From: Alphaproteobacteria bacterium
GTDB taxonomy: Bacteria; Pseudomonadota; Alphaproteobacteria; Micropepsales; Micropepsaceae
DNA length: 42,181 nt
NCBI GenBank assembly: GCA_013697055.1
Contig: JACCXK010000093.1
Coordinates: 1-42,181 of the forward strand
Reading direction: 5' to 3'
Made by a program: the position numbers and the translations under genes. Below, piece after piece: positions 6,666 through 22,919 of this stretch. The notes beneath the pieces were generated by a model, which was given only the letters and a program-made list of their open reading frames with translations, was not told the origin of the DNA and ran no database searches. Numbering within the stretch: the stretch's first letter is position 1; every line of letters starts with the position of its first letter.

Positions 6666-6740
6666 GGGCGCGTAGCTCAGCGGGAGAGCACTCCCTTCAC
6701 ACGGGAGGGGTCAGAGGTTCAATCCCTCTCGCGCCCACCA
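6666..6740 (+). tRNA. tRNA-Val (anticodon CAC)
   Basis: A 75-base cloverleaf with encoded CCA. The acceptor stem GGGCGCG/CGCGCCC pairs perfectly, the D-arm is GCTC...GAGC, the anticodon stem is CTCCC/GGGAG with loop TTCACAC giving anticodon CAC (codon GUG), and the T-arm is AGAGG-TTCAATC-CCTCT. The 3' half (6696-6741) is duplicated imperfectly at 16228-16273, marking this gene as the integration site of a genomic island. Confidence 0.96.
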
Positions 6741-7669: not shown

Positions 7670-8875
7670 TTATACCTCCAAAGCATTCGCCGCAGGACAG
7701 GAGAGCCGCCACCTGAGACCCGACGATGGAAAGTCGAGTTGGGTTTCACCATCAAGGCTCATCTGCGCCATTCTCGTAACCACCGTCGTGCCGAAGCCTC
7801 GGCGCTTCGGCGCGGTAATGGGAACGCCACTCGTTTCGATCCACGTAATCTCAAAGCGCTCTTTATCGGCGCCTTCAATCTGCCAAGCGATATCTATCGA
7901 GCCGTCCTCACCAGACAAAGCGCCATGTTTAACCGCATTGGTCGATAGCTCATGCAGTGCCATGCCAAGGGCCTGGGCCGCAGAAGCCGACAACCGAAGC
8001 GGCTGCCCAACGAAAAGGATGCGCCGACCAACCAAATCGCCGAAATGAGACAGCTGTTCGACAACGAGATCCGCGATATCTACGCTCTTCCATTGGTTCC
8101 TAACCAGCAGGTCATGGCTCACCGCGAGTGCATGCACGCGACTCGCAAAGTGTTGCCTAAACTGTTCGGGACTTCCGGCTACGGTCTGCTGAGCAACCGC
8201 CATTACGACGCTTAATATATTCTTCGAACGGTGGTTTACCTCATTCATTAACAATCGGATTTGCTGTTCAGCCTCTCTGTGAGCTTCGGTGCGTTCCATC
8301 ACCCGCTGTTCCAGGGTGCTGTTAAGCTCGCGTAACTGCTCTTGGACTAGCCGACGCTCCTCAATTTCCGCCAATAGATTGCGGTTGGCGTTCTCGAGTT
8401 GGCGCTGCTTCAGGTGCAGCTCTGCCAGAACGGCAACCTTGGAGCGAAGGATGGCCGGATTGACAGGCTTATGCAAATAATCAACTGCACCACTATCATA
8501 GCCTTCGATGATATGCTGATCTTCATTATAATAGGCAGTAAGAAAAATAATCGGAACCTCGGCTGTCTTTTTTCGCTCCCTTATCATCTGAGCTAATTCA
8601 AATCCTGTTACCCCGGGCATCCGTACATCCAAAATGAGGATGGCAAACTCCTCATTCAGAAGCGCGAGCAGGGCCTGGTCCGCTGATTCCGAACGGACGA
8701 GTTTATAGCGTGGGGAATCTAGAACAGTCTCAAGCACGGTCAGGTTTTTCGGCTCATCATCAACGATCAAGATATTGATCAGTTCATCGGCGGACAGCGC
8801 CGTAGGCTCCCTTGAGGAACTGCTACCTGATACGGTTTCTCGCGCGACGGTCTCAGTCGCCACCGGGATACTCAT
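7670..8875 (-). CDS. Receiver-HWE hybrid histidine kinase
   Basis: A 401-residue soluble protein. The N-terminal receiver (about 33-150) has phosphoacceptor Asp83 in LILDVRMPG, Thr113 and Lys136 in HKPVNP. A coiled-coil stretch (about 155-205) follows, then an HWE-type kinase core: His215 in NEVNHRSKN, the His308-Glu309 pair in ALHELSTNAVKHGALS (Asn313 in the N box), and the Trp345-x-Glu347 motif in ITWIETSG. No membrane segment is visible. Receiver-first HWE kinases can be controlled by phosphorylation of their own receiver. I chose ATG 8875 because AAGGA lies seven bases upstream; an in-frame ATG at 8890 lacks one. The gene lies 81 bases downstream of the giant kinase on the same strand. 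Confidence 0.88.
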   Translation of the reverse strand: MSIPVATETVARETVSGSSSSREPTALSADELINILIVDDEPKNLTVLETVLDSPRYKLVRSESADQALLALLNEEFAILILDVRMPGVTGFELAQMIRERKKTAEVPIIFLTAYYNEDQHIIEGYDSGAVDYLHKPVNPAILRSKVAVLAELHLKQRQLENANRNLLAEIEERRLVQEQLRELNSTLEQRVMERTEAHREAEQQIRLLMNEVNHRSKNILSVVMAVAQQTVAGSPEQFRQHFASRVHALAVSHDLLVRNQWKSVDIADLVVEQLSHFGDLVGRRILFVGQPLRLSASAAQALGMALHELSTNAVKHGALSGEDGSIDIAWQIEGADKERFEITWIETSGVPITAPKRRGFGTTVVTRMAQMSLDGETQLDFPSSGLRWRLSCPAANALEV

Positions 8876-8956
8876 ATTGTTTTCCTTCATCTTACCATCA
8901 AAAATGTCTAAGGGTCACACGTAGGTCCCAAATCCGCTTGGAATTCCTCCAGAGAG

Positions 8957-11900
8957 TTATCGGTATAGCCAGACCCTCATAAGAGATAAGAGTTGATCAG
9001 TATTTACCGGCTTTGAAATATAGTCGCTCGCGCCCGCATCCAGACACTTCTCGCGGTCACCTTTCATCGCTTTCGCCGTCAGGGCCAGGATCGGGAGAGT
9101 TCTGAATTCTGGAATGCTGCGAATTTGCCGGATAGTTTCGTAACCGTCCATTTCCGGCATCATGATATCCATCAGTACCAGCCTGATGTCCGGTGTGGTT
9201 TTGATGATTTCAATCGCACTCTTGCCCTTGGTGGTGCTGATCACCTCTACCTCGTGGTTCTCAAGAAGCGAGGTAAGGGCAAAGATATTCCGCGCGTCGT
9301 CATCGACAACAAGCACTTTGCGGTTACGTAATATTTCCTTCGACCCGTGAAGACGCTCGAGCATAGACTGTTTCTCGGCCGGCAAGTCTGTAATCACCCG
9401 ATGAAGGAAGAGCGACGTCTCATCAAGCAGACGTTCGGGAGATTGGACGTCTTTCAGGACAATACTTTTCGCCATTGTCCTAAGCTGCGCTTGCTCTTCG
9501 GCTGTTAGGTCCTTACCGGTAAAGACGACAACCGGCACATCTGCCAAAGCTGGCTCATTATGCAACTTCTCTAAAAGTTCAAATCCCGTCATGTCGGGTA
9601 GACGAAGATCCAGCACGACACAGTCAAAGGGCTGCCGGCGCAATGCTTCCAGTGCCTCGCCCCCGCTCCCTGCGGCGACGAGCTCGATATCCTTGTAGTT
9701 CAGAAGTTCCATTATGGACTGCCGCTCAATCTCATTGTCTTCGATTATCAGCAGCCTTTTAGTCCGCATGGCGGTAAAGTCTTTGAGGCGATCGAACGCG
9801 ATTTCCAAGCCGCTCGTGGTGGCCTCTTTAACAAGATATGCGAATGCCCCATGAGACAAGCCATGCTGGCGTTCCTCTTCTAAGGTGACAATTTGAACCG
9901 GAATATGGCGCGTCGCAGGATCCAGTTTTAGCTGGTTGAGCAACGTCCAGCCAAGCATGTCCGGGAGAAAAATGTCCAGGGAGATTGCTGCAGGACGTAG
10001 CTGCCGCGCGAGGGATAGCCCCCCCGCACCACGGGTGCTGACTACTCCCTTAAAGCCCTTGTCCCGCGCCAAGTCGAGCAGTATCCGCGCGTAACGGATG
10101 TCGTCCTCGATAATGAGCAAGACAGCATCACCCTCGAGAATACTATCTCGGTCGTCTTCGACCATCTCTTCTCGCGCTTGGGGCATAACGACCAATTCCC
10201 TCACCATCGAGGAATGGATGGGTGCGCCATCGCCAATTGCGTTGGCCGGGGTATCGCGGCCGGGGAATTTGACAGGTAAGAATAGGGTGAATTTGCTGCC
10301 TTGGCCAAAAATGCTTGTAAGTTTAATCTCCCCCCCAAGAAGAAGGGCCAACTCACGACTGATAGCAAGGCCAAGTCCGGTACCGCCGTATCTGCGTGAT
10401 GTTCCCGCGTCTGCCTGCTGGAAGGCTTCGAAGATAAGACGCTGCTTATCGGGTGCGATACCGATACCCGTATCCTCAACAGTAAAGGCGACTATATGCT
10501 CGGCCTTACTCAACAGAGGGTGGTCCGTACTCCAACCCGTTTCGGCGACGGCGACACGTACGTCCACATGTCCACTCGAAGTAAACTTGACAGCGTTGGA
10601 GAGGAGATTCTTTAGGATCTGCTGTAACCTCTTGTCGTCGCTTTCCATAAAGTGCGGCAGATTGTCCTCAAAATGCACATTAAGGGGTAGATTCTTAGCC
10701 TCTGCTACATGGCGGAAGTTTCTTTCGATATTTTGACGAAGACGCTCGAAGGGAATTTCTTCAACTTCAACTGTAACGGTGCCGGATTCAATCTTTGAAA
10801 GGTCGAGAATATCGTTGATCAGGTTTAGGAGGTCAGAACCTGAAGAATTGATGTTGCGAGAAAACTCAATCTGCTTCCCAGAAAGATTTCCGGGAACGTT
10901 CTCAGCAAGCTGCTGGCTCAGAATCAGAATTGAATTCAGCGGGGTTCGCAACTCATGTGACATGTTCGCCAAAAACTCGGATTTGTATTTCGACGTGAGA
11001 GCCAGCTCGATGGCTTTTTCTTCGAGCGCATGACGGGCCTGCTCCACCTCGGCGTTCTTGCGTTCCACTTCAGCATTCTGGTCCGCAAGCAGCTTCGCCT
11101 TCGTACCGAGTTCCTCGTTAGTCTGCTGAAGTTCGGTTTGGCGGGATTGCAGTTCAACTGTGAGCTGCTGCGACTGCGTAAGTAGTCCTTCAGTTCGCAT
11201 TGTCGCTTCGATCGTGTTGAAGACGGCGCCCAGGCTCAGCGTCAGCTGATCAAGGAATGATAGATTGACTGGCGTGAATGGTTGAAGAGTCGCCAGCTCG
11301 ATGACCGCTTTGGTCTGCCCCTCAAAAAGGACCGGGAGCACGACAATGCTCACCCGGGCTGCTTCCCCAAGACTAGAGTGAATGGTGAGAAAATCTGGCG
11401 GAACGTCCGTGAGCAAAATGCTCTTCTTTTCGATCGCACATTGGCCAGCCAGCCCTTCGCCTAGGCTAATAGTTTGAGCCAAATTATCGCCACTGTGCGC
11501 ATAGCTGGAGAGTAGATTGAGCGTGCCATTTCGGTCGCCACTTTCGAGGTGATAGATCGTGCCTTGGTATGCTTGGACAAGGGGGCTCAGCTCGCTGAGC
11601 AAGATTTTTCCCACGGTGCTAAGATCGCGTTGGCCCTGTAACATGCCGGTAAATTTGGCGAGATTTGTTTTGAGCCAATCCTGCTCTCTGTTACTTTCGG
11701 TAGTGTCGCGTAGGTTCGAAATCATAGTGTTCAAATTGTCTTTAAGCTCAGCTACTTCTCCGCGTGCATCAACCTGAATAGTACGTGTAAGATCCCCCTT
11801 CGTCACGGCGGTGGCTACTTCTGCGATTGCACGAACCTGAGTAGTGAGGTTGGCTGCAAGCAAGTTCACGTTGCTAGTGAGGTCCTTCCATGTGCCGGCA

Positions 11901-14900
11901 GCGCCCGGAACGTTGGCTTGTCCGCCCAGACGCCCATCCACACCGACCTCGCGCGCGACATTTGTCACCTGATCAGCAAACGTTGCTAGTGTATCGGTCA
12001 TGTTGTTGATGGTCTCGCCAAGCGCCGCCACTTCGCCCTTTGCCTGCACTGAGAGACGCTGACTGAGGTTGCCGTTAGCCACGGCGGTAACCACTTTCAC
12101 AATACCGCGGACCTGATCGGTGAGGTTGGATGCCATGAAGTTGACGTTATCGGTCAAATCCTTCCATGTACCAGCGACGCCTGGCACGGCCGCCTGTCCG
12201 CCAAGCCTGCCTTCGGTGCCGACTTCACGCGCCACTCGCGTTACTTCGCCCGCAAAGGAGTTCAGCTGATCGACCATCGTATTGATGGTGTTCTTTAGCT
12301 CCAGGATTTCACCTTTCACATCAACGGTGATCTTGCGGTTTAGATCGCCGCGCGCCACGGCGGTGGTCACTTCGGCAATGTTCCGAACTTGGGTGGTAAG
12401 GTTATTTGCCAAGCCGTTGACGGTGTCCGTGAGGTCCTTCCAAGTACCGGCCACTCCTGGGACCGCCGCTTGTCCACCAAGCCGCCCTTCTGTGCCAACC
12501 TCGCGGGCGACGCGCGTGACTTCCGAGGCGAAAGAACGGAGCTGCTCCACCATCGTGTTAATAGTTTCTTTGAGTTGCAGAATCTCTCCACGAACGTCGA
12601 CGGTAATCTTTTTGGAAAGATCGCCGCTGGCCACCGCGATGGTGACCTCGGCAATGTTGCGCACTTGGCCGGTAAGATTAGACGCCATGTAGTTGACGTT
12701 ATCGGTCAAATCCTTCCATGTTCCAGCCACCCCGGGAACAGCCGCCTGGCCGCCGAGTTTTCCTTCGGTTCCGACCTCTCGTGCGACGCGCGTGACTTCC
12801 GACGCGAAAGCAGACAACTGATCTACCATGGTGTTCATGGTCTCCTTCAGCTGCAAAATCTCGCCCTTCACGTCGACGGTGATCTTGCGACTGAGGTCGC
12901 CGCGTGCGATTGCAGTCGCGACGTCAGCAATATTCCGCACCTGGCCGGTTAGGTTGTTCGCCATTGAATTGACGTTGTCGGTTAGATCTTTCCAGGTCCC
13001 CGCCACACCCGGAACTTGCGCTTGGCCGCCGAGTTTTCCATCAGTTCCCACCTCGCGCGCCACGCGGCTGACCTCGGCCGCGAACGAACGGAGCTGATCT
13101 ACCATCGTATTGATAGTTTCTTTCACCTCGAGAATTTCACCTCGAACGTCGGCGGTAATCTTTTTTGAAAGATCGCCGGTGGCGACGGCAATGGTCACCT
13201 CGGCGATGTTGCGGACCTGGCCAGTTAGGTTATTCGCCATAGAATTTACGTTGTCGGTGAGATCCTTCCACGTTCCGGCCACGCCAGGCACCACTGCTTG
13301 GCCCCCTAGCTTGCCTTCCGTCCCTACTTCACGCGCCACGCGTGTGACCTCGGAAGCGAAGCCGTTGAGCTGATCGACCATAGTGTTAATGGTGTTTTTT
13401 ACTTCTAGAATTTCGCCGCGGACATCGGCAGTGATCTTTTTAGAAAGATCCCCGCGCGCCACTGCCGTCGTAACTTCCGCAATGTTGCGTACCTGGCCGG
13501 TTAGATTGGAAGCCATAAAATTCACGTTGTCGGTAAGGTCTTTCCAGGTTCCAGCGACGCCGGGGACTTCAGCCTGACCTCCAAGCTTACCTTCAGTGCC
13601 AACCTCGCGAGCCACGCGAGTGACTTCTGCGGCGAAGCCATTGAGTTGGTCGACCATTGTGTTCATGGTGTTCTTCAGTGCGAGGATTTCACCCTTCACC
13701 TCGACAGTGATCTTCGAAGAAAGATCGCCTTCCGCAATAGCTGTGGCCACCTCCGCGATGTTGCGAACCTGGCCAGTGAGATTGTTCGCCATCGAGTTAA
13801 CGTTGTCTGTGAGATCCTTCCAGGTTCCGGCCACACCTTCGACTGCGGCCTGGCCGCCGAGCTTACCTTCGGTCCCCACTTCGCGCGCGACGCGGCTTAC
13901 TTCTCCGGCAAAGGCGTTGAGCTGGTCCACCATCGTGTTCAGGGTGTTTTTCAGCTCGAGAATCTCGCCTTTGACGTCGACAGTAATTTTCCTGGAGAGA
14001 TCGCCATTGGCTACCGCAGTAGCTACGTCGGCGATGTTGCGCACCTGCCCGGTAAGGTTGGATGCCATTGAGTTAACGTTGTCAGTGAGATCTTTCCAGG
14101 TGCCGGCGACGCCAGGCACCACTGCTTGGCCGCCCAGCTTGCCTTCAGTGCCTACTTCTCGCGCCACTCGCGTGACTTCTGAGGCGAACCCATTGAGCTG
14201 GTCAACCATCGTGTTGATAGTGTTTTTCACTTCCAGAATCTCGCCGCGGACGTCAGCTGTGATCTTTTTCGAAAGATCGCCGCGCGCCACAGCGGTCGTG
14301 ACTTCCGCAATGTTGCGTACTTGACCGGTTAGATTGGAAGCCATGAAATTCACGTTGTCGGTGAGGTCTTTCCAGGTGCCGGCGACACCCGGTACTGCTG
14401 CTTGGCCCCCAAGCTTGCCTTCAGTGCCCACCTCACGAGCCACGCGAGTGACTTCCGCGGCGAAGCCGTTAAGCTGATCGACCATCGTGTTGATGGTATT
14501 CTTGAGCGCCAGAATTTCCCCCTTAACGTCGACAGTGATCTTGCGGGAGAGGTCGCCCTTGGCGACGGCAGTTGTCACGTCTGCGATATTACGAACCTGG
14601 CCGGTAAGGTTGGATGCCATGGAATTCACGGAGTCGGTGAGATCCTTCCACGTACCGGCGACGCCCGGCACCTGGGCCTGGCCGCCTAGCTTTCCTTCGG
14701 TCCCGACCTCACGGGCTACTCGGGTCACTTCGGATGAAAACCCATTGAGCTGATCGACCATTGTGTTAATGGTCTCTTTTAGAGCCAGAATCTCACCTTT
14801 TGCATCAACAGTGATCTTCCGAGAAAGGTCGCCGCGCGCGACCGCCGTCGTCACTGTCGCGATATTGCGAACCTGTTCGGTGAGGTTTGTGGCCATAGCA

Positions 14901-15817
14901 TTTACGGAATCGGTTAGGTCCTTCCATGTGCCGGCAACACCAGGAACCACGGCCTGACCACCTAAACTCCCGTCTGTGCCTACTTCACGCGCCATGCGTG
15001 TGACTTCCGAGGCGAAGGACCGGAGCTGATCCACCATCGTGTTGATGGCTTCCTTGAGCTGCAGAATTTCACCGCGCACATCAACGGTGATCTTTTTGGA
15101 AAGGTCTCCATTTGCCACGGCGATCGTCACGTCCGCTATGTTACGGACCTGTGCTGTTAGATTACCGGCCATTTGATTTACGGACTCAGTCAGATCTTTC
15201 CATACACCAGATACACCTCTAACTTTAGCCTGCCCGCCCAGCTTACCCTCTGTGCCTACCTCGCGAGCGACGCGTGTCACCTCGGACGTGAAAACCGAGA
15301 GCTGCTCGATCATGGTATTGACTAGCTTGGCCGACCGAAGAAATTCGCCCTTCAGTGGCTCCCCATCAGCCTGCAGCTCCATAGATTGCAAAAGGTCGCC
15401 CTTTGCCACGGCGCCGATGGTGCGTGCGACTTCGGTTGTTGGCCTCACCAAGTCATCAAGCAGGGTATTGATGGAGCCCACTTTCTCTGCCCAGCCACCG
15501 ATAGCTCCAGGCAGGGACATACGCTGCTTGAGCCGACCCTCCTTGCCCACCGTTTTGCTTAAGCGCGTAACCTCTCTTGAAATGCGCTCTTCGTGGGCTA
15601 CGCATTGGTTGAAGGCTTCCGCAAGACGTCCGTCGGTACCTGGCCAATCGGCGGGCAAACGTACAGAGAAGTCCCCGTCGCGAAACGCGAGCATCGCCGT
15701 CAGAAGATGCCGCGACCGAGCGGCCGCATCCTCCTGCCTAGCATCTGCTAGTTTTTCGTTTGCTGCTGTCCGGTGGGATAACTTCTTCTGGCCGCGGGCT
15801 ATAACTGTTTCGCTCAT
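8957..15817 (-). CDS. Giant poly-HAMP hybrid sensor histidine kinase, three receivers
   Basis: A 2286-residue protein with no signal peptide or membrane helix, so probably cytoplasmic. After a divergent first unit (about 40-125) come 14 HAMP-type units to about residue 1370. Thirteen of these carry the linker [15 protein letters not shown]...GTWKDLTD, with a period of 92 residues (276 bases). Then follow a GAF-like region (about 1400-1535), a coiled coil (about 1540-1605), HisKA with His1621 in [12 protein letters not shown], a HATPase_c domain ([26 protein letters not shown]), and receivers near 1895-2010, 2020-2140 and 2165-2285, each keeping its Asp. This is the layout of group III (Nik1-like) hybrid kinases, whose HAMP arrays act as the signal converter. 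It is the first gene of the island operon and its stimulus is unknown. Confidence 0.93.
11700..15450 (-). repeat. In-frame 276-bp tandem repeats coding for HAMP units
   Basis: The GDL codon landmark recurs at 15391, 15103, 14827, 14551, 14275, 13999, 13723, 13447, 13171, 12895, 12619, 12343, 12067 and 11791. The spacing is exactly 276 bases, except 288 between the first two. Units 5 and 8 (14275, 13447) encode almost identical protein 828 bases apart, yet their DNA differs at 16 of 120 compared positions, all silent. The array is old and held by selection on protein, not a fresh expansion. Confidence 0.9.
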
Positions 15818-17334: not shown

Positions 17335-17946
17335 TTACTTCTTGAACTCCACAAGGATCGCCTCATAAGGCGCATTGCCGGCATTTTCGTCGCTTTGTGT
17401 GCCGGGCATCAGCCATTGCACCGCACCCGGCTGGAGCGGCACGGATTTCCATCGCATCGCGGTCAACGGCACCAGAAGGCGCTCGAACGGCTCCTGATAC
17501 GGGGTCGTCTTTTCGCCTTGCGCAAGCCGCAGCCGCAGCACCCGCACCTGGTTGTTGTCGAGCTCGACTTTGAAATGCTTGTCCAGCGCGGGCGCTTTGA
17601 CAGTTGGCTTCATCGCGGGCGGCGATTTCAGCTCGACATGCACGATGTCCACTGGGCCCCTGGCGGCGATCTGCGCGGTATGGGTGCCCATGGCGTCGTT
17701 CCATTGCACTTCGCCGGCCTTGAAATGCTCCGGGCTGACTTTACCGTCCGGGTAGCGGATGGTGTTGGTGCCGGCCTCGAAATAGATCATCACCCGGTTG
17801 GTGAGATGGACATGCGGCTTGGTGAGTTCGCCCGGCTTGCCGGCGCTGAGCGCCACCTTGGCCACGGCATTGTTGATCGGCACGCTCGGCGGGTCATAGG
17901 GAATGCCCGCATGGGCGACCGCGGCGAGCGCCAAGATACTCAGCAT
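17335..17946 (-). CDS. Exported cupin-like protein
   Basis: 203 residues starting with a short signal peptide (MLSILALAAVAHA). Two cupin-like beta segments follow: KPHVHLTNRVMIYFEAG through GEVQWNDAMGTHTAQI (about 48-110) and FKVELDNNQVRVLRLRLAQGEKTTPY onward (about 130-185). The second half lacks a clear metal-binding His/Glu set, so it may be structural. It probably acts in the periplasm. The start at 17946 was chosen for the signal peptide; it lies 19 bases after the GH172-like gene and ends the four-gene operon. A sugar-binding or isomerase-like role is possible but unproven. Confidence 0.7.
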   Translation of the reverse strand: MLSILALAAVAHAGIPYDPPSVPINNAVAKVALSAGKPGELTKPHVHLTNRVMIYFEAGTNTIRYPDGKVSPEHFKAGEVQWNDAMGTHTAQIAARGPVDIVHVELKSPPAMKPTVKAPALDKHFKVELDNNQVRVLRLRLAQGEKTTPYQEPFERLLVPLTAMRWKSVPLQPGAVQWLMPGTQSDENAGNAPYEAILVEFKK

Positions 17947-17965
17947 GATGTCTGCCTTTCTGTTG

Positions 17966-19135
17966 TCAGCGGCGCTGGGGTTGCAAGTCCGTATCGGGCG
18001 GCAGCGCCGGATAGGGCGCATGCGCACCCTGTTGGTACCAGAACGCCACCGACGAGATGTTCTCATGGATCGGCCGATAAACGCGGGCCTCGCCGTCCTG
18101 CTGCCAGCCCAGCCCCTGGATCGTCACTTTCAGATCGGACTTGAAGCGCACCGGATCGGTGATGTGCCAGCGATACAGGCCGAAACGGCTATCGGCTTCG
18201 CGGTCCTCGGGGCGCAGCACCTGCACCAGGCCGGTATAGGGCCCGGAAAATTCCTGGTAGGCGCGGGTCAGCGGGCTGACGAAATCATAGGAGCCGTTGA
18301 AATAATCCTCGGTGCCGGTGCCCGCGATGGTGGGAAATTCCCTGTCGCCGTCCATAAAGAACTTGATCTCGCCCTCGCCCCACCAGCCGGAATGGGCGAT
18401 GCCATAGGTCATGTAGGTGCCGACATACTGGCCCCGGCCGCGCACCCCATCCAGGATCACATAGTCGGTCTTGTCGGGCAGCGGCCGCACCTGGCGGAAC
18501 TGGGCATGGAAGGTGGCGGCATCGGCCGCCACGCTGCCTAGCGCATAATCGATCTGGAAATAGAGCGTGGCATTGGTCTTGGCGCGGTTCTCCACCTCGA
18601 TGCGCATATGTTTGCGGAACGGCATGGGCCAATAGCTGTTGAAGGCGCTGCCCGGATTGACGGTGATGGCCAGCGAATTGACCTGGGCATATTGGCCAAG
18701 CCCCATGGCGAAGAAATCGCCCAGCGGCACTTCCACCGACGGATCCTTTTCATCGTCCCACCAGATGCGCAGGATCAGGCTGCGCCATGTGGTGGTGGCG
18801 GCGGCCACCGCGGGGGTCAGCCAGATATGCTGGATGGCGCCCGTGCCGGCGACATCGGCCAGGGTTGCGCGCTCGCCCGCGTTGACCCGGATGGACGGAC
18901 TGATCTTCCAGCCGCGCCCCAGATACTTGGCGGCGTTCTGGCCGGTGCCAGTGGTGGCCATGCCGCCCTTGCCGGGCTCACCGGTGGGATTTTCCGGCGA
19001 GATCGAGCGGGTTTGGGCGTCGGAGGTCCGGTAGAGACTGGAGAGCGTGCCGGTGAGGCCATCCACCGGTTGGCCGAAGCCTGGCAGGGTCAGGACAGCC
19101 GCCATCGCCGCCACAAGCAAAGCCATCCGCATCAT
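17966..19135 (-). CDS. Exported DUF2961 / GH172-family protein
   Basis: 389 residues with a cleavable signal (MMRMALLVAAMAAVLTLPGF). The body shows DUF2961 landmarks: GAIQHIWLTP (about 100), LRIWWDDEKDPSVEVPLGDFF (about 125-145), YWPMPF, and the acidic signature GTGTEDYFNGSYDF with Glu276. GH172 members characterised so far include fructofuranosidase/difructose anhydride enzymes and arabinan-active enzymes, so a periplasmic glycoside-processing role is likely. The ATG overlaps the permease stop by four bases (ATGA). The substrate cannot be read from the sequence. Confidence 0.82.
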   Translation of the reverse strand: MMRMALLVAAMAAVLTLPGFGQPVDGLTGTLSSLYRTSDAQTRSISPENPTGEPGKGGMATTGTGQNAAKYLGRGWKISPSIRVNAGERATLADVAGTGAIQHIWLTPAVAAATTTWRSLILRIWWDDEKDPSVEVPLGDFFAMGLGQYAQVNSLAITVNPGSAFNSYWPMPFRKHMRIEVENRAKTNATLYFQIDYALGSVAADAATFHAQFRQVRPLPDKTDYVILDGVRGRGQYVGTYMTYGIAHSGWWGEGEIKFFMDGDREFPTIAGTGTEDYFNGSYDFVSPLTRAYQEFSGPYTGLVQVLRPEDREADSRFGLYRWHITDPVRFKSDLKVTIQGLGWQQDGEARVYRPIHENISSVAFWYQQGAHAPYPALPPDTDLQPQRR

Positions 19136-20514
19136 GAGAGCTCCCTGGTTGTTTTGCGCATTGCCAGCAGCACGATTGTTCCAATCGCCGTCCAGGCGGG
19201 GAAGATCCAGAACACTGGCGGCCAGCCGCCGGCCGCGACCAGCGGCATCACCACCGCCAGCACCGCCATCACCACCGCGCCGATGACGCCGGCCACCACC
19301 ACCCAACTGGGCGCCGCCACCACATCGGCGCGCGCACCTTGCCGTTTGCGCAACACCGGCAGCCCGATGCAGCAGATGGCATAGCCGAACACCAGGCTGA
19401 TGGTGATCGCATCCACCAATGCGCCCACCGCGCCCCGGCCCAGGCCGAGCCCCGCGACATTGATGACGAAAATCACCAGCACGATGGGCGCCGGCACGCC
19501 GGAGCGGCCATGCCATTTGTTCATCCACGCCGGCATCAGGCCTTCGCGCGTCAGGGCGATCAGGGTGCGCGACGCCATCAGGAAGCAGCCATTCCAGGTC
19601 TTGAGCAGGGAGAGAATGGCGATCAGCAGCACCAGCGGCACCAGCACCTGGCCGCCGGGCAGCAGACGCGTCACCTCGACAAAGGCCAGGGAATGGGACG
19701 GCAGGTTTTGCCAGGGCATCATGATGGCGGTACCGGTCACCACCACGCAATAAAAGGCGGCGGCCGCGACAACCGTCAGCACCAGTATGCGGAACAGGGT
19801 GGAGAACGGCAGGCGGGCGGATTTTTCCTCCACCACATGGCTGACCGCCTGGAAGCCGCACAACAGGAAGGCGCAATTGGCGAAGATGGCGGCGGCGCCT
19901 TCCCACCACACCGGATTTTGCGCCGGCAGCAGCGGCGCCAGGTTGGCGGGCGCGCCGTGGGACAGCATCAGCGCCACCATCGCCAGCGCCCCGCTGATGA
20001 AGATGTAGGTGAACAGACTGTGGAAGCGCGCCAGCACCTGGCCGCCCCGGTAATTCAGCAGCGCGATGACCGGCGCCCCGATACAGCCGATGATCAGCTG
20101 GTTGCGGGTGACGATGGTGCCGGCGGCAGTGTACAGCGCCACATCGGGCACGCCGGTGTTCAGCCGCTCGAACAGCCAGGCGATGGCCAGGCCTTCGAAA
20201 ATCGTCACCAGGATCCAGGCAAAGGCGATGAACCAGCCGACATAGAAGGCCAAGCCCCGGCCAAAGACATGCAGCACAAAGGTGAACTCTCCGCCGGTGA
20301 CGGGAAGGCGCGAGGTCAGCTCGGCATAGCAGGCGCCGATGCAGGCGACCACGATGCCGCCCAGGGCAAAGCCGATCACCGCGCCGCCGGGTCCGGCCGA
20401 CGCGATCCAGCTTCCCGCCAGAACGCACCAGGACGAGCCGATGATGGAGCCGAAGCCGAAGGCGAACAGCTGGAAGCGACCGATATTGCCCTTAAGGGCG
20501 GGTGCTTCGGCCAC
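19132..20514 (-). CDS. APC-family amino-acid/amine permease
   Basis: 460 residues, about 12 hydrophobic helices, inner membrane. The N-terminus FAFGFGSIIGSSWCVLAGSW matches the APC helix 1 substrate-binding loop (G-S-I-I-G-S), and ELTSRLPVTGGEFTFV is the conserved helix 2-3 signature. The start is GTG, sharing its first base with the stop of the upstream gene (TAGTG), so translation is coupled. It probably imports an amino acid, amine or related product liberated by the upstream formamidase-like enzyme. Specificity is unknown. Confidence 0.87.
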   Translation of the reverse strand: MAEAPALKGNIGRFQLFAFGFGSIIGSSWCVLAGSWIASAGPGGAVIGFALGGIVVACIGACYAELTSRLPVTGGEFTFVLHVFGRGLAFYVGWFIAFAWILVTIFEGLAIAWLFERLNTGVPDVALYTAAGTIVTRNQLIIGCIGAPVIALLNYRGGQVLARFHSLFTYIFISGALAMVALMLSHGAPANLAPLLPAQNPVWWEGAAAIFANCAFLLCGFQAVSHVVEEKSARLPFSTLFRILVLTVVAAAAFYCVVVTGTAIMMPWQNLPSHSLAFVEVTRLLPGGQVLVPLVLLIAILSLLKTWNGCFLMASRTLIALTREGLMPAWMNKWHGRSGVPAPIVLVIFVINVAGLGLGRGAVGALVDAITISLVFGYAICCIGLPVLRKRQGARADVVAAPSWVVVAGVIGAVVMAVLAVVMPLVAAGGWPPVFWIFPAWTAIGTIVLLAMRKTTRELS

Positions 20515-22919
20515 TAGATCGGCGCTTTGAACGGCGCAGCTTGCGAAAATCGCTTCAACACATTGGTGGTGATGCGGGCGATGTCATTGTCGAAGCTGTT
20601 GTGATTCAGCGCCCCGATATAGGCCATGGAGCCGACGGAAAAGACCGCGCCGCCAGACGGCGTTTCGAAGAAGGTCAGCGAGGCGTAGTTCTTGTTGTCG
20701 TAATCATCGCGCATCTGCACCGCCTGTTGCGCGTTGGCCCAGACCGGGATCGGCGTGCCTTCGGACTTGGCCAGGTGCAGGGCATGGCGCGGCGTGCCGG
20801 CGTCATAATCCACCCGGTCGAACTCATCGCCCGCGGCGCCGCCGAAATGGGTGCCGTAGTCGCCGATGATCTCATTATGCACGCCGGCGAAGATGAAGGC
20901 AGCGCGCGGGTTTTTCGAATCCGGCAGCACCTTGTAATAGGTGTTGCCCGACCCGAAGGTGGTGCCGGCATAGCGCAGGCCCAAGGTGTGGGTCAGCCAG
21001 CCGTGGTCCCATTCCAGATTGTCCACCCCGTTGAGTTCGAAGCGGCGCTCGCCCTCGAAATTCTGCGGCGTCCAATAGACTTCGTTGAGGCGCCGCAGTT
21101 CGACCGCCGGGATGCCGTCATCGCGCCAGGCCGCGGGATTCTGGAAGCCGTTGCCGCCCAAGTACATAAAGCGCCCGCCGGAGCCCAGATAGTCCTTCAC
21201 GGCGGTGAAGATTTCCGGCGACTGGTATTCCGGATGCTGGCCGGTGATCACGGTGCGATAGCGCGACAGCAGCGCCTTGCCTTCCTTGTGCACCAGGTCG
21301 TCGGTGATGATGTCGTAGGGCATCTTTTCATGTTCCAGCCAGTCCACGACCTGGGTGTCGGAATTGATCAGGTGCAGCCAGGTCTTGAGCGTGACCGTCA
21401 GCAGCGGCCGCCGCCAGGATGAGCGCGTCACCAATGTGCCGTCGATATGCTGGTCATACAGGCCGCGCCCGAATTCGGGATGCTGCATCAGGAAATCGAT
21501 ATCGTCGGCGTTGAAGTGGAACGCGGGATAACGTTCTAACTGGGCGAAATTGCGCGTCCAGTTACTGTAGGCCAGATAGGTGGTGGTGGGGATCAGGAAG
21601 GCCGTGGTTGCAGTCGTGGTGCCCTTGGGCGGCGCCACGAAGAACGGCACATAATGCTCGGACTTGCCGTGCTGCAGATGCACGGCATAGATGCCGCTCT
21701 TCAACCCTTGCGGCACCGTATAGCTGAAGCCGGGATTCCATTCCGCATCCAGCAGATCGTCTTCGCGGAAATACATCGCCGAGAATTCGCCCGGCTGCTG
21801 GCGCCAGTCCTTGCTGGAGGTCCAGTGATAGCCCTTCATGGCGCGCTGCGGCCAGTTCACGCCGCGCCCGTTCCAGGCCGCCGCGGTCGCGTCATGCACG
21901 GTCAAGGTGCCGATGCCGCGGCCGAAGTCCCAGAAGCCGCGAATGTCATCGCCCGCGACCTCGTCCAGTTTGGTCGCCGTGGCGACGCGGATCATGTCGG
22001 TGGGATGCAGAACCTTGCCCGACAGGCGTACGCCGTCGATACGGCCATTGAACAGGGCATAAGGCGCGGGTTGGCCGTTGGCCATCATCTCGCCGCTGCC
22101 GGCGGCAAAGCGCATCGGCGTGCCGCTGGCCACCGTCCAGGCCTTGGCCAGGCGGCGGGTGCCGAAAATGTAATGCCAGGGGTCGCTGTTGGAAGCGAGG
22201 GTGAAATTGGGATCGGTCATCAGCACGTCATAAACGCGCCACTCGCCTGACGAAGAATCGAACGACGCCCCCAGCACGGTCCAGTGACCATGCTGGATAT
22301 AGCGCGAGGTGCGCAGCTTGAAATATTTGCCTCCGCCCTGCCCTACCCACAGCGCGCCCTCGCCGCGCTCATCGATGCCGATGGCCCAGCCGGTCTTTTT
22401 GGTCTGGTCCCATTGCGAGGCGATAATTTGCGGCCCCTTGCCCGGCAAGGTGGGCTTGACCAACGCCACCACCGAGAAATCGCGGGTGCTGCTGGTGACG
22501 GCCGACGGCGAGGCCTGGTCGAAGGTGACATAGGAGCCGGGCCAGGTCTTCTGCTCAGCCCCAGGATAGCTTTTGGCGAAATCGGCCGAGACCGGATCGA
22601 CCCGGAAACGCCCGGCGCCCGACAGGGTATCGCCATTGATCACCCGCACCAGCGAGGCCTTGTAATCGCCCGGGGCATAGGTGCTGACGTGAAAGGTGAT
22701 CTTCTCGCCCGGCCGCACCGTGATCTGGTCGCTGTAACCGACGATGGTCTTATTGGATTTGGCCAGGGTCAGGGCATGGCCCTTGTCGGCGTCGGTCACC
22801 GCACGGCGGGGCCGCGCCGTCAGGCTGGTCAACGCCATGGCGGGAAGCCGGGCCATGGCGGCAAAGGCGGAGGCCACCCCCATCATCAACATGGATGTGC
22901 GGCGCGTCAGATTGGTCAT
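20514..22919 (-). CDS. Exported N,N-dimethylformamidase large-subunit-like protein
   Basis: 801 residues. The N-terminus TNLTRRTSMLMMGVASAF is a signal with a twin-arginine pair, possibly Tat. The middle has a LamG-like jelly roll (DFSVVALVKP through FNGRIDGVRLSG) and the C-terminal half a glutamine-amidotransferase-like fold, as in the DmfA2 beta subunit. Candidate mononuclear iron ligands are Tyr448 or Tyr451 (TTTYLAYSN), Tyr488 (GLYDQH) and Glu564 (HPEYQS). Their spacing is close to the Tyr/Tyr/Glu set known in dimethylformamidase. No small alpha-subunit gene is next to it. I preferred ATG 22919, behind GGGGGAC, over an in-frame TTG. It is the first gene of the operon; an amide or formamide substrate is only an inference. 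Confidence 0.78.
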   Translation of the reverse strand: MTNLTRRTSMLMMGVASAFAAMARLPAMALTSLTARPRRAVTDADKGHALTLAKSNKTIVGYSDQITVRPGEKITFHVSTYAPGDYKASLVRVINGDTLSGAGRFRVDPVSADFAKSYPGAEQKTWPGSYVTFDQASPSAVTSSTRDFSVVALVKPTLPGKGPQIIASQWDQTKKTGWAIGIDERGEGALWVGQGGGKYFKLRTSRYIQHGHWTVLGASFDSSSGEWRVYDVLMTDPNFTLASNSDPWHYIFGTRRLAKAWTVASGTPMRFAAGSGEMMANGQPAPYALFNGRIDGVRLSGKVLHPTDMIRVATATKLDEVAGDDIRGFWDFGRGIGTLTVHDATAAAWNGRGVNWPQRAMKGYHWTSSKDWRQQPGEFSAMYFREDDLLDAEWNPGFSYTVPQGLKSGIYAVHLQHGKSEHYVPFFVAPPKGTTTATTAFLIPTTTYLAYSNWTRNFAQLERYPAFHFNADDIDFLMQHPEFGRGLYDQHIDGTLVTRSSWRRPLLTVTLKTWLHLINSDTQVVDWLEHEKMPYDIITDDLVHKEGKALLSRYRTVITGQHPEYQSPEIFTAVKDYLGSGGRFMYLGGNGFQNPAAWRDDGIPAVELRRLNEVYWTPQNFEGERRFELNGVDNLEWDHGWLTHTLGLRYAGTTFGSGNTYYKVLPDSKNPRAAFIFAGVHNEIIGDYGTHFGGAAGDEFDRVDYDAGTPRHALHLAKSEGTPIPVWANAQQAVQMRDDYDNKNYASLTFFETPSGGAVFSVGSMAYIGALNHNSFDNDIARITTNVLKRFSQAAPFKAPI

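Follow-up and report, generated by a model that had tools for sequence, protein, structure and literature searches.

What could a dimethylformamidase-like amide hydrolase carrying an export leader do when it is encoded directly ahead of an amino-acid-type permease, a GH172 (DUF2961) protein, and a cupin-like protein? The four genes are arranged in this order of transcription on the minus strand, within positions 17335–22919 of a 42,181-nucleotide stretch of DNA (the window), which belongs to a genome assembly of 3.77 Mb in 256 contigs (Table 1). With moderate confidence, we favour a reading in which the hydrolase would be a periplasmic, amide-scavenging enzyme that dispenses with a small subunit and is partnered by a permease importing its product.

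Table 1. Genes of the cluster and their positions in the window
Feature	Position	Strand	Description
DMF-like amide hydrolase	20514..22919	minus	801 aa from ATG; Pfam DMFA2_C, Laminin_G_3
APC-superfamily amino-acid-type permease	19132..20514	minus	460 aa, GTG start; Pfam AA_permease_2
GH172 (DUF2961) protein	17966..19135	minus	389 aa; Pfam DUF2961; export-type N-terminus
Cupin-like protein	17335..17946	minus	203 aa; export-type N-terminus; weak family evidence

The arrangement given in the preliminary description, four overlapping or closely spaced genes, is confirmed: the hydrolase stop and the permease start overlap by 1 nt (TAGTG), the permease stop and the GH172 start by 4 nt (ATGA), and a 19-nt gap separates the GH172 and cupin-like genes. 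Against relatives, dN/dS was ~0.09–0.32 across 12 comparisons covering all four genes (hydrolase, ~0.09–0.20 in five; permease, 0.20–0.32 in four; GH172, 0.13 in one; cupin-like gene, 0.18–0.25 in two). The four-gene cluster is real; its genes evolve under purifying selection, and the reading frames are not products of chance. It is from the spacing that the four genes are taken as a probable single transcript, because the promoter scan was no better than shuffled sequences (one site, which does not precede the cluster, against 1.4 in the shuffles).

The hydrolase consists of the leader, a conserved linker, and the domains of the dimethylformamidase large subunit, with matches to Pfam DMFA2_C (E 2.5e-65; PF20254, 221.7 bits against a cut-off of 27) and Laminin_G_3 (E 2.2e-7), and, among PDB entries, to 6lvb (large subunit of dimethylformamidase; E 7.4e-99) and 8huy (N-acetyl-(R)-β-phenylalanine acylase; E 7.4e-94). 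In the Paracoccus dimethylformamidase, iron is reported to be bound by Y399, Y440, and E521, and the mutants Y440A, E521A, and H519A to be inactive (PMC7686228). The three ligands and H519 (Paracoccus aminophilus DmfA2 numbering), on whose retention in homologues the metal site of the preliminary description depended, are conserved in all 43 aligned rows, as is E657; N547 is conserved in 42 of the 43. The hydrolase is a member of the dimethylformamidase family with a predicted mononuclear iron site, in which the ligands would be Y451, Y488, and E564 and the catalytic residue H562 of the window protein, together with N590 and E699. AlphaFold models of the hydrolase were unusable (mean pLDDT 33.8, nine sequences).

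Our sample comprised 195 relatives, with 23 genomes of the genus having any PF20254 match, 12 of which encode a hydrolase of the same genus-level clade as the window protein (members 78–95% identical to it); among these 12, G048 has only a remnant, and the hydrolase is split over two contigs in G001 and G061. PF20254 genes of other genomes of the genus (G004, G013, G022, G028, G035, G041, G046, G047, G051, G053, and G055) were not counted as clade members, because nine of the 11 gave no match to the window hydrolase at E 1e-3 and the other two (G004 and G041) gave short, weak ones of 27–32% identity. Outside the clade, 49 of 385 genomes of the class (the window genome included, few genus-mates being sampled) match the hydrolase at E 1e-90, the best-scoring match other than its own being 38% identical and none exceeding 43%; on plasmids, all 77 matching records are <60% identical. 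Partial, duplicate, or run-on frames (L007, L011, L015, L017, L020, L021, L028, L031–L033, L037, L050–L061, L066, L072, L082–L084, and L086), another subfamily (L022–L027, L029, and L030), and L005, which had no matching frame, were left out of the tree, and L006 was trimmed at its residue 231 before alignment. The window clade is placed on a long branch (1.29) as the sister of L067/L070/L075 (support 0.94), a group that also has no small subunit. The acylase 8huy groups with L047 and others (0.795); because the window clade is long-branched and lies outside this acylase clade, the acylase can serve only as a loose analogy for the window hydrolase.

The secretion signal previously assigned to the hydrolase is a leader of the twin-arginine type (MTNLTRRTSMLMMG..., with cleavage likely after AMA), and it is conserved in all nine full-length hydrolases of the clade, each of which starts with a short n-region followed by TRR and a hydrophobic stretch, and has a basic residue ahead of an AxA-type cut site. 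In 31 of the 33 other genomic rows of the tree, the first domain begins 18 residues or fewer from the start; the remaining two (L006 and L077) are run-on frames. TatC is encoded in the window genome (E 3.5e-70). Export by Tat rather than Sec is likely; the motif has Ser in place of Phe at the +2 position of the Tat consensus, given as S/T-R-R-X-F-L-K (PMC3383694). A literature search for an exported form of dimethylformamidase returned general Tat and export papers only.

The absence of a small subunit, already remarked on in the preliminary description, was examined with a profile built from relatives of DmfA1. With L064 as a positive control, the profile gave no match anywhere in the 42-kb window, in L032–L042, L059, L060, and the paralogue loci L047 and L010, or in the larger flanks L087–L089 of the sister group. 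In a separate profile scan, a small-subunit gene lies upstream in 21 of the 33 genomic rows outside the clade, and the clade loci gave none. A single-sequence search with DmfA1, which is weak for distant forms, matched seven genomes among the 195 relatives, all labelled as the same class and none as the same genus, and gave no match in the window genome. The absence is thereby supported, and it appears less odd than was first implied, because 12 of the 33 other genomic rows also have no small subunit in the fetched flanks (short for most), and because the significant matches of DmfA1 in the PDB are dimethylformamidase entries only, with none among the acylase entries. Three family genes carried on plasmids (L063, L064, and L065) are preceded by a gene for the small subunit, with transporters of amide or amino-acid type in their vicinity.

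The window genome also encodes a leaderless family paralogue (L047; G000:C200, 1954–5516), which falls in the β-Phe acylase clade, has a 4-nt overlap with a class III transaminase gene, and adjoins a gene for an oligopeptide-type binding protein (SBP_bac_5). Transaminase sequence is adjacent to the paralogue in all seven genomes of the genus that have it, and each of the seven also belongs to the 12 genomes of the exported clade, G048 with its remnant being counted (hypergeometric 5e-7 to 7e-7, relatedness ignored). Since the tree includes four of these seven paralogues and groups them with one another, the co-occurrence may come from one ancestral event. These bacteria, it is suggested, use N-acyl β- or ω-amino acids. 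For the exported hydrolase itself, an N-acyl amino acid, possibly a β-amino acid derivative, is our leading guess, favoured by the name of the family's acylase and by the paralogue without a leader, with its overlapping class III transaminase gene.

The hydrolase could instead be a periplasmic formamidase or small-amide hydrolase, whose freed amine would be imported by the permease as a nitrogen source; we hold this to be unlikely, although the most credible of the alternatives. The characterised dimethylformamidase acts on DMF, formamide, and N-methyl- and N-ethylformamide (PMC7686228), and two other genes of the family lie near AmiS/UreI-type transporters. However, the column of F693, described as a residue constricting the pocket of the Paracoccus enzyme (PMC7686228), is a gap in all nine clade rows of the tree. 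The permease partner, moreover, is of the amino-acid type and not AmiS/UreI. Small amides should cross membranes without any export of an enzyme.

The permease matches Pfam AA_permease_2 (PF13520; E 4.4e-28, 98.8 bits against a cut-off of 27) and no NCBIfam transporter model above its cut-off. The coupling to an amino-acid-type importer that had been proposed for the window is seen in nine of the 12 genomes with a clade hydrolase, where the permease lies directly downstream (G000, G001, G016, G017, G018, G037, G048, G061, and G068), with a 1-nt stop/start overlap in seven of the nine pairs; the other two, G016 and G017, have a permease frame that begins 27–28 nt later. It is not adjacent to the hydrolase in G015, G040, and G056, with homologues located elsewhere in the genome in G040 and G056. 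At E 1e-100, a search of 299 sampled genomes of the phylum returned no permease besides the window's own.

That the hydrolase and permease are mere neighbours with separate roles, their overlap arising from genome packing, seems improbable. Three of the 12 genomes are unpaired, G036 has the permease without the hydrolase, and in G048 (L037, C88, 5722–6069) the hydrolase is reduced to the start of its leader, fused in frame with the C-terminal 107 residues and followed by an intact permease; this remnant may reflect either a true deletion or an error of assembly. Against separate roles, the two genes share 11 genomes of 12 and 12, where ~2 would be expected among 69–72 genomes of the genus, a figure that ignores relatedness and includes permeases 63–64% identical that may be paralogues, and the pair is retained in differing gene surroundings. 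The core of the cluster is the pair of hydrolase and APC permease, and the GH172 and cupin-like genes are accessory; the co-occurrence elsewhere that the preliminary description looked for divides the set, the permease being adjacent in nine of 12 genomes, the cupin-like gene clustered in four of 12 as a minimum, and the GH172 gene in two of 12.

Two further kinds of neighbour were considered and dropped as partners. PQQ-dependent dehydrogenases, which neighbour the permease in G056 and G036 and the hydrolase in G015, were dropped because the window genome (G000) alone has 50 matched stretches of the family, some of which are pieces of one gene. In G056, the hydrolase and the permease each have an enolase-superfamily gene next to them, and these two genes are only 29% identical to each other.

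The GH172 protein matches Pfam DUF2961 (E 2.4e-87), in agreement with its first assignment as a DUF2961-family glycosidase, and its nearest solved relative is ExoMA1 (PDB 8ic8; E 3.5e-109, 48% identity), an exo-α-D-arabinofuranosidase (PMC10509167). It retains the catalytic Glu pair (E270/E291 equivalents) and the neighbouring Trp and Asp named for αFFase1 (PMC8605356), all of which it shares with ExoMA1. At the position of Asn253 of ExoMA1 it has Asp (EDYFNGSYDF vs EDYFGGAWNF), read by eye because a gap shifted the column of the automatic alignment; Gly at this position is reported to admit fructose and other residues to exclude it (PMC10509167). The GH172 protein is predicted to be exo-α-D-arabinofuranosidase-like. 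It differs from ExoMA1 further in its export-type N-terminus, ExoMA1 being described as lacking a signal sequence (PMC10509167), and in that no GH116 partner matched in the window genome. Among other GH172 genes of the genus, the closer ones (L091–L094; 53–58% identical) lack an evident leader when read from the starts as called, and the more distant ones (L097–L099; 38–40% identical) have leader-like stretches, L095 being left out of this comparison. An MFS sugar transporter adjoins the GH172 gene at L091 and L092, the two loci whose neighbours were scanned.

The preliminary description had the four genes release a sugar and an amine or amino acid from an amide-linked glycoconjugate. In such a scheme, GH172 would remove a furanosyl sugar, the hydrolase would cut the amide, and the permease would import the amino acid; tight packing of all four genes in the window and in G061, with the same 4-nt overlap before GH172 in two different orders (hydrolase–permease–GH172–cupin in the window and hydrolase–permease–cupin–GH172 in G061), export-type N-termini on all three soluble proteins, and the intact catalytic residues of GH172 are all in keeping with it. 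As the core function, however, joint release of sugar and amide products is unsupported, because GH172 is rarely clustered with the hydrolase (two of 12, G000 and G061, 84% identical) and not associated with it in the genus: the other 10 genomes with a clade hydrolase gave no GH172 match (G037 being 58% complete), and any GH172 gene and the hydrolase share two genomes of the genus, where ~2 are expected. The four genes, in addition, include no sugar transporter, and the window genome has no match to GH116, nor to DUF4185 in a search that had no positive control and is uninformative. A literature search found nothing linking DUF2961 with an amino acid permease. We consider joint dismantling of a glycoconjugate improbable too, and place it behind mere adjacency. 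An elaborated form, in which a self-sufficient exported 2-Tyr-1-carboxylate iron amidase would use its linker (~30 residues after the leader) in place of the small subunit and, with the exported GH172, remove an amide-linked amino acid together with a sugar of the D-arabinofuranose type from a single N-acyl glycoconjugate in the periplasm, is very unlikely.

The cupin assignment of the fourth protein is weak: it matched PDB 3lag at E 0.078 (single sequence) and 0.047 (profile), with no Pfam match at E 0.01 and no NCBIfam match at E 0.1, and its AlphaFold models were unusable (mean pLDDT 31.7, four sequences). The gene is in the cluster in at least four of the 12 genomes (G000, G001, G061, and G068), a minimum because the contigs of G018 and G037 end inside the permease, and it is located elsewhere in the genome in G048 and G056.

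In the amide-scavenging reading that we favour, the hydrolase would fold in the cytoplasm with its mononuclear iron and be exported, already folded, to the periplasm by the Tat route. There it would cleave an amide without a small subunit, most likely that of an N-acyl or N-formyl amino acid, and the co-translated APC permease would import the freed amino acid or amine. Counting against this reading, the large subunit of the Paracoccus enzyme is reported to be inactive by itself (PMC7686228), and in three of the 12 genomes no permease adjoins the hydrolase. The genes for GH172 and the cupin-like protein would be accessory ones gained in some strains.

Among the known systems, the window hydrolase resembles the Paracoccus DmfA1/DmfA2 enzyme (PDB 6lvb) in its large-subunit family, its ~32% identity to P. 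aminophilus DmfA2, and its Tyr/Tyr/Glu and His residues. In contrast to this α2β2 enzyme (EC 3.5.1.56), it has no detected small subunit, an export leader, a gap at the F693 column, a long separate branch, and a different transporter partner. With the β-Phe acylase (8huy, 8i59, and 8i5a) it shares the family, the metal ligands, the lack of a small-subunit chain as judged by PDB sequence search, and possibly an amino acid product, judged from the acylase's name, whereas it belongs to a different clade, the paralogue L047 grouping with the acylase instead. In the PDB copy searched, these are the only two activities of the iron amidase family with solved structures, and neither of the two sequences carries an export leader, judged for the acylase from the crystallised chain only. 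Within the dimethylformamidase family, the exported clade appears to be a new form. If it indeed works without a small subunit, the large subunit can act alone in the periplasm, and the permease partner points to a testable class of product. The genome annotation 'dimethylformamidase' can stand for several different enzymes.

Elsewhere in the window, the region 7670–15817 has a lower GC content (0.51–0.57, against ~0.61–0.65) and encodes a 2286-aa hybrid histidine kinase with 13–14 HAMP repeats and three receiver domains, together with an HWE kinase; a tRNA-Val gene is located not far away, at 6666–6740.
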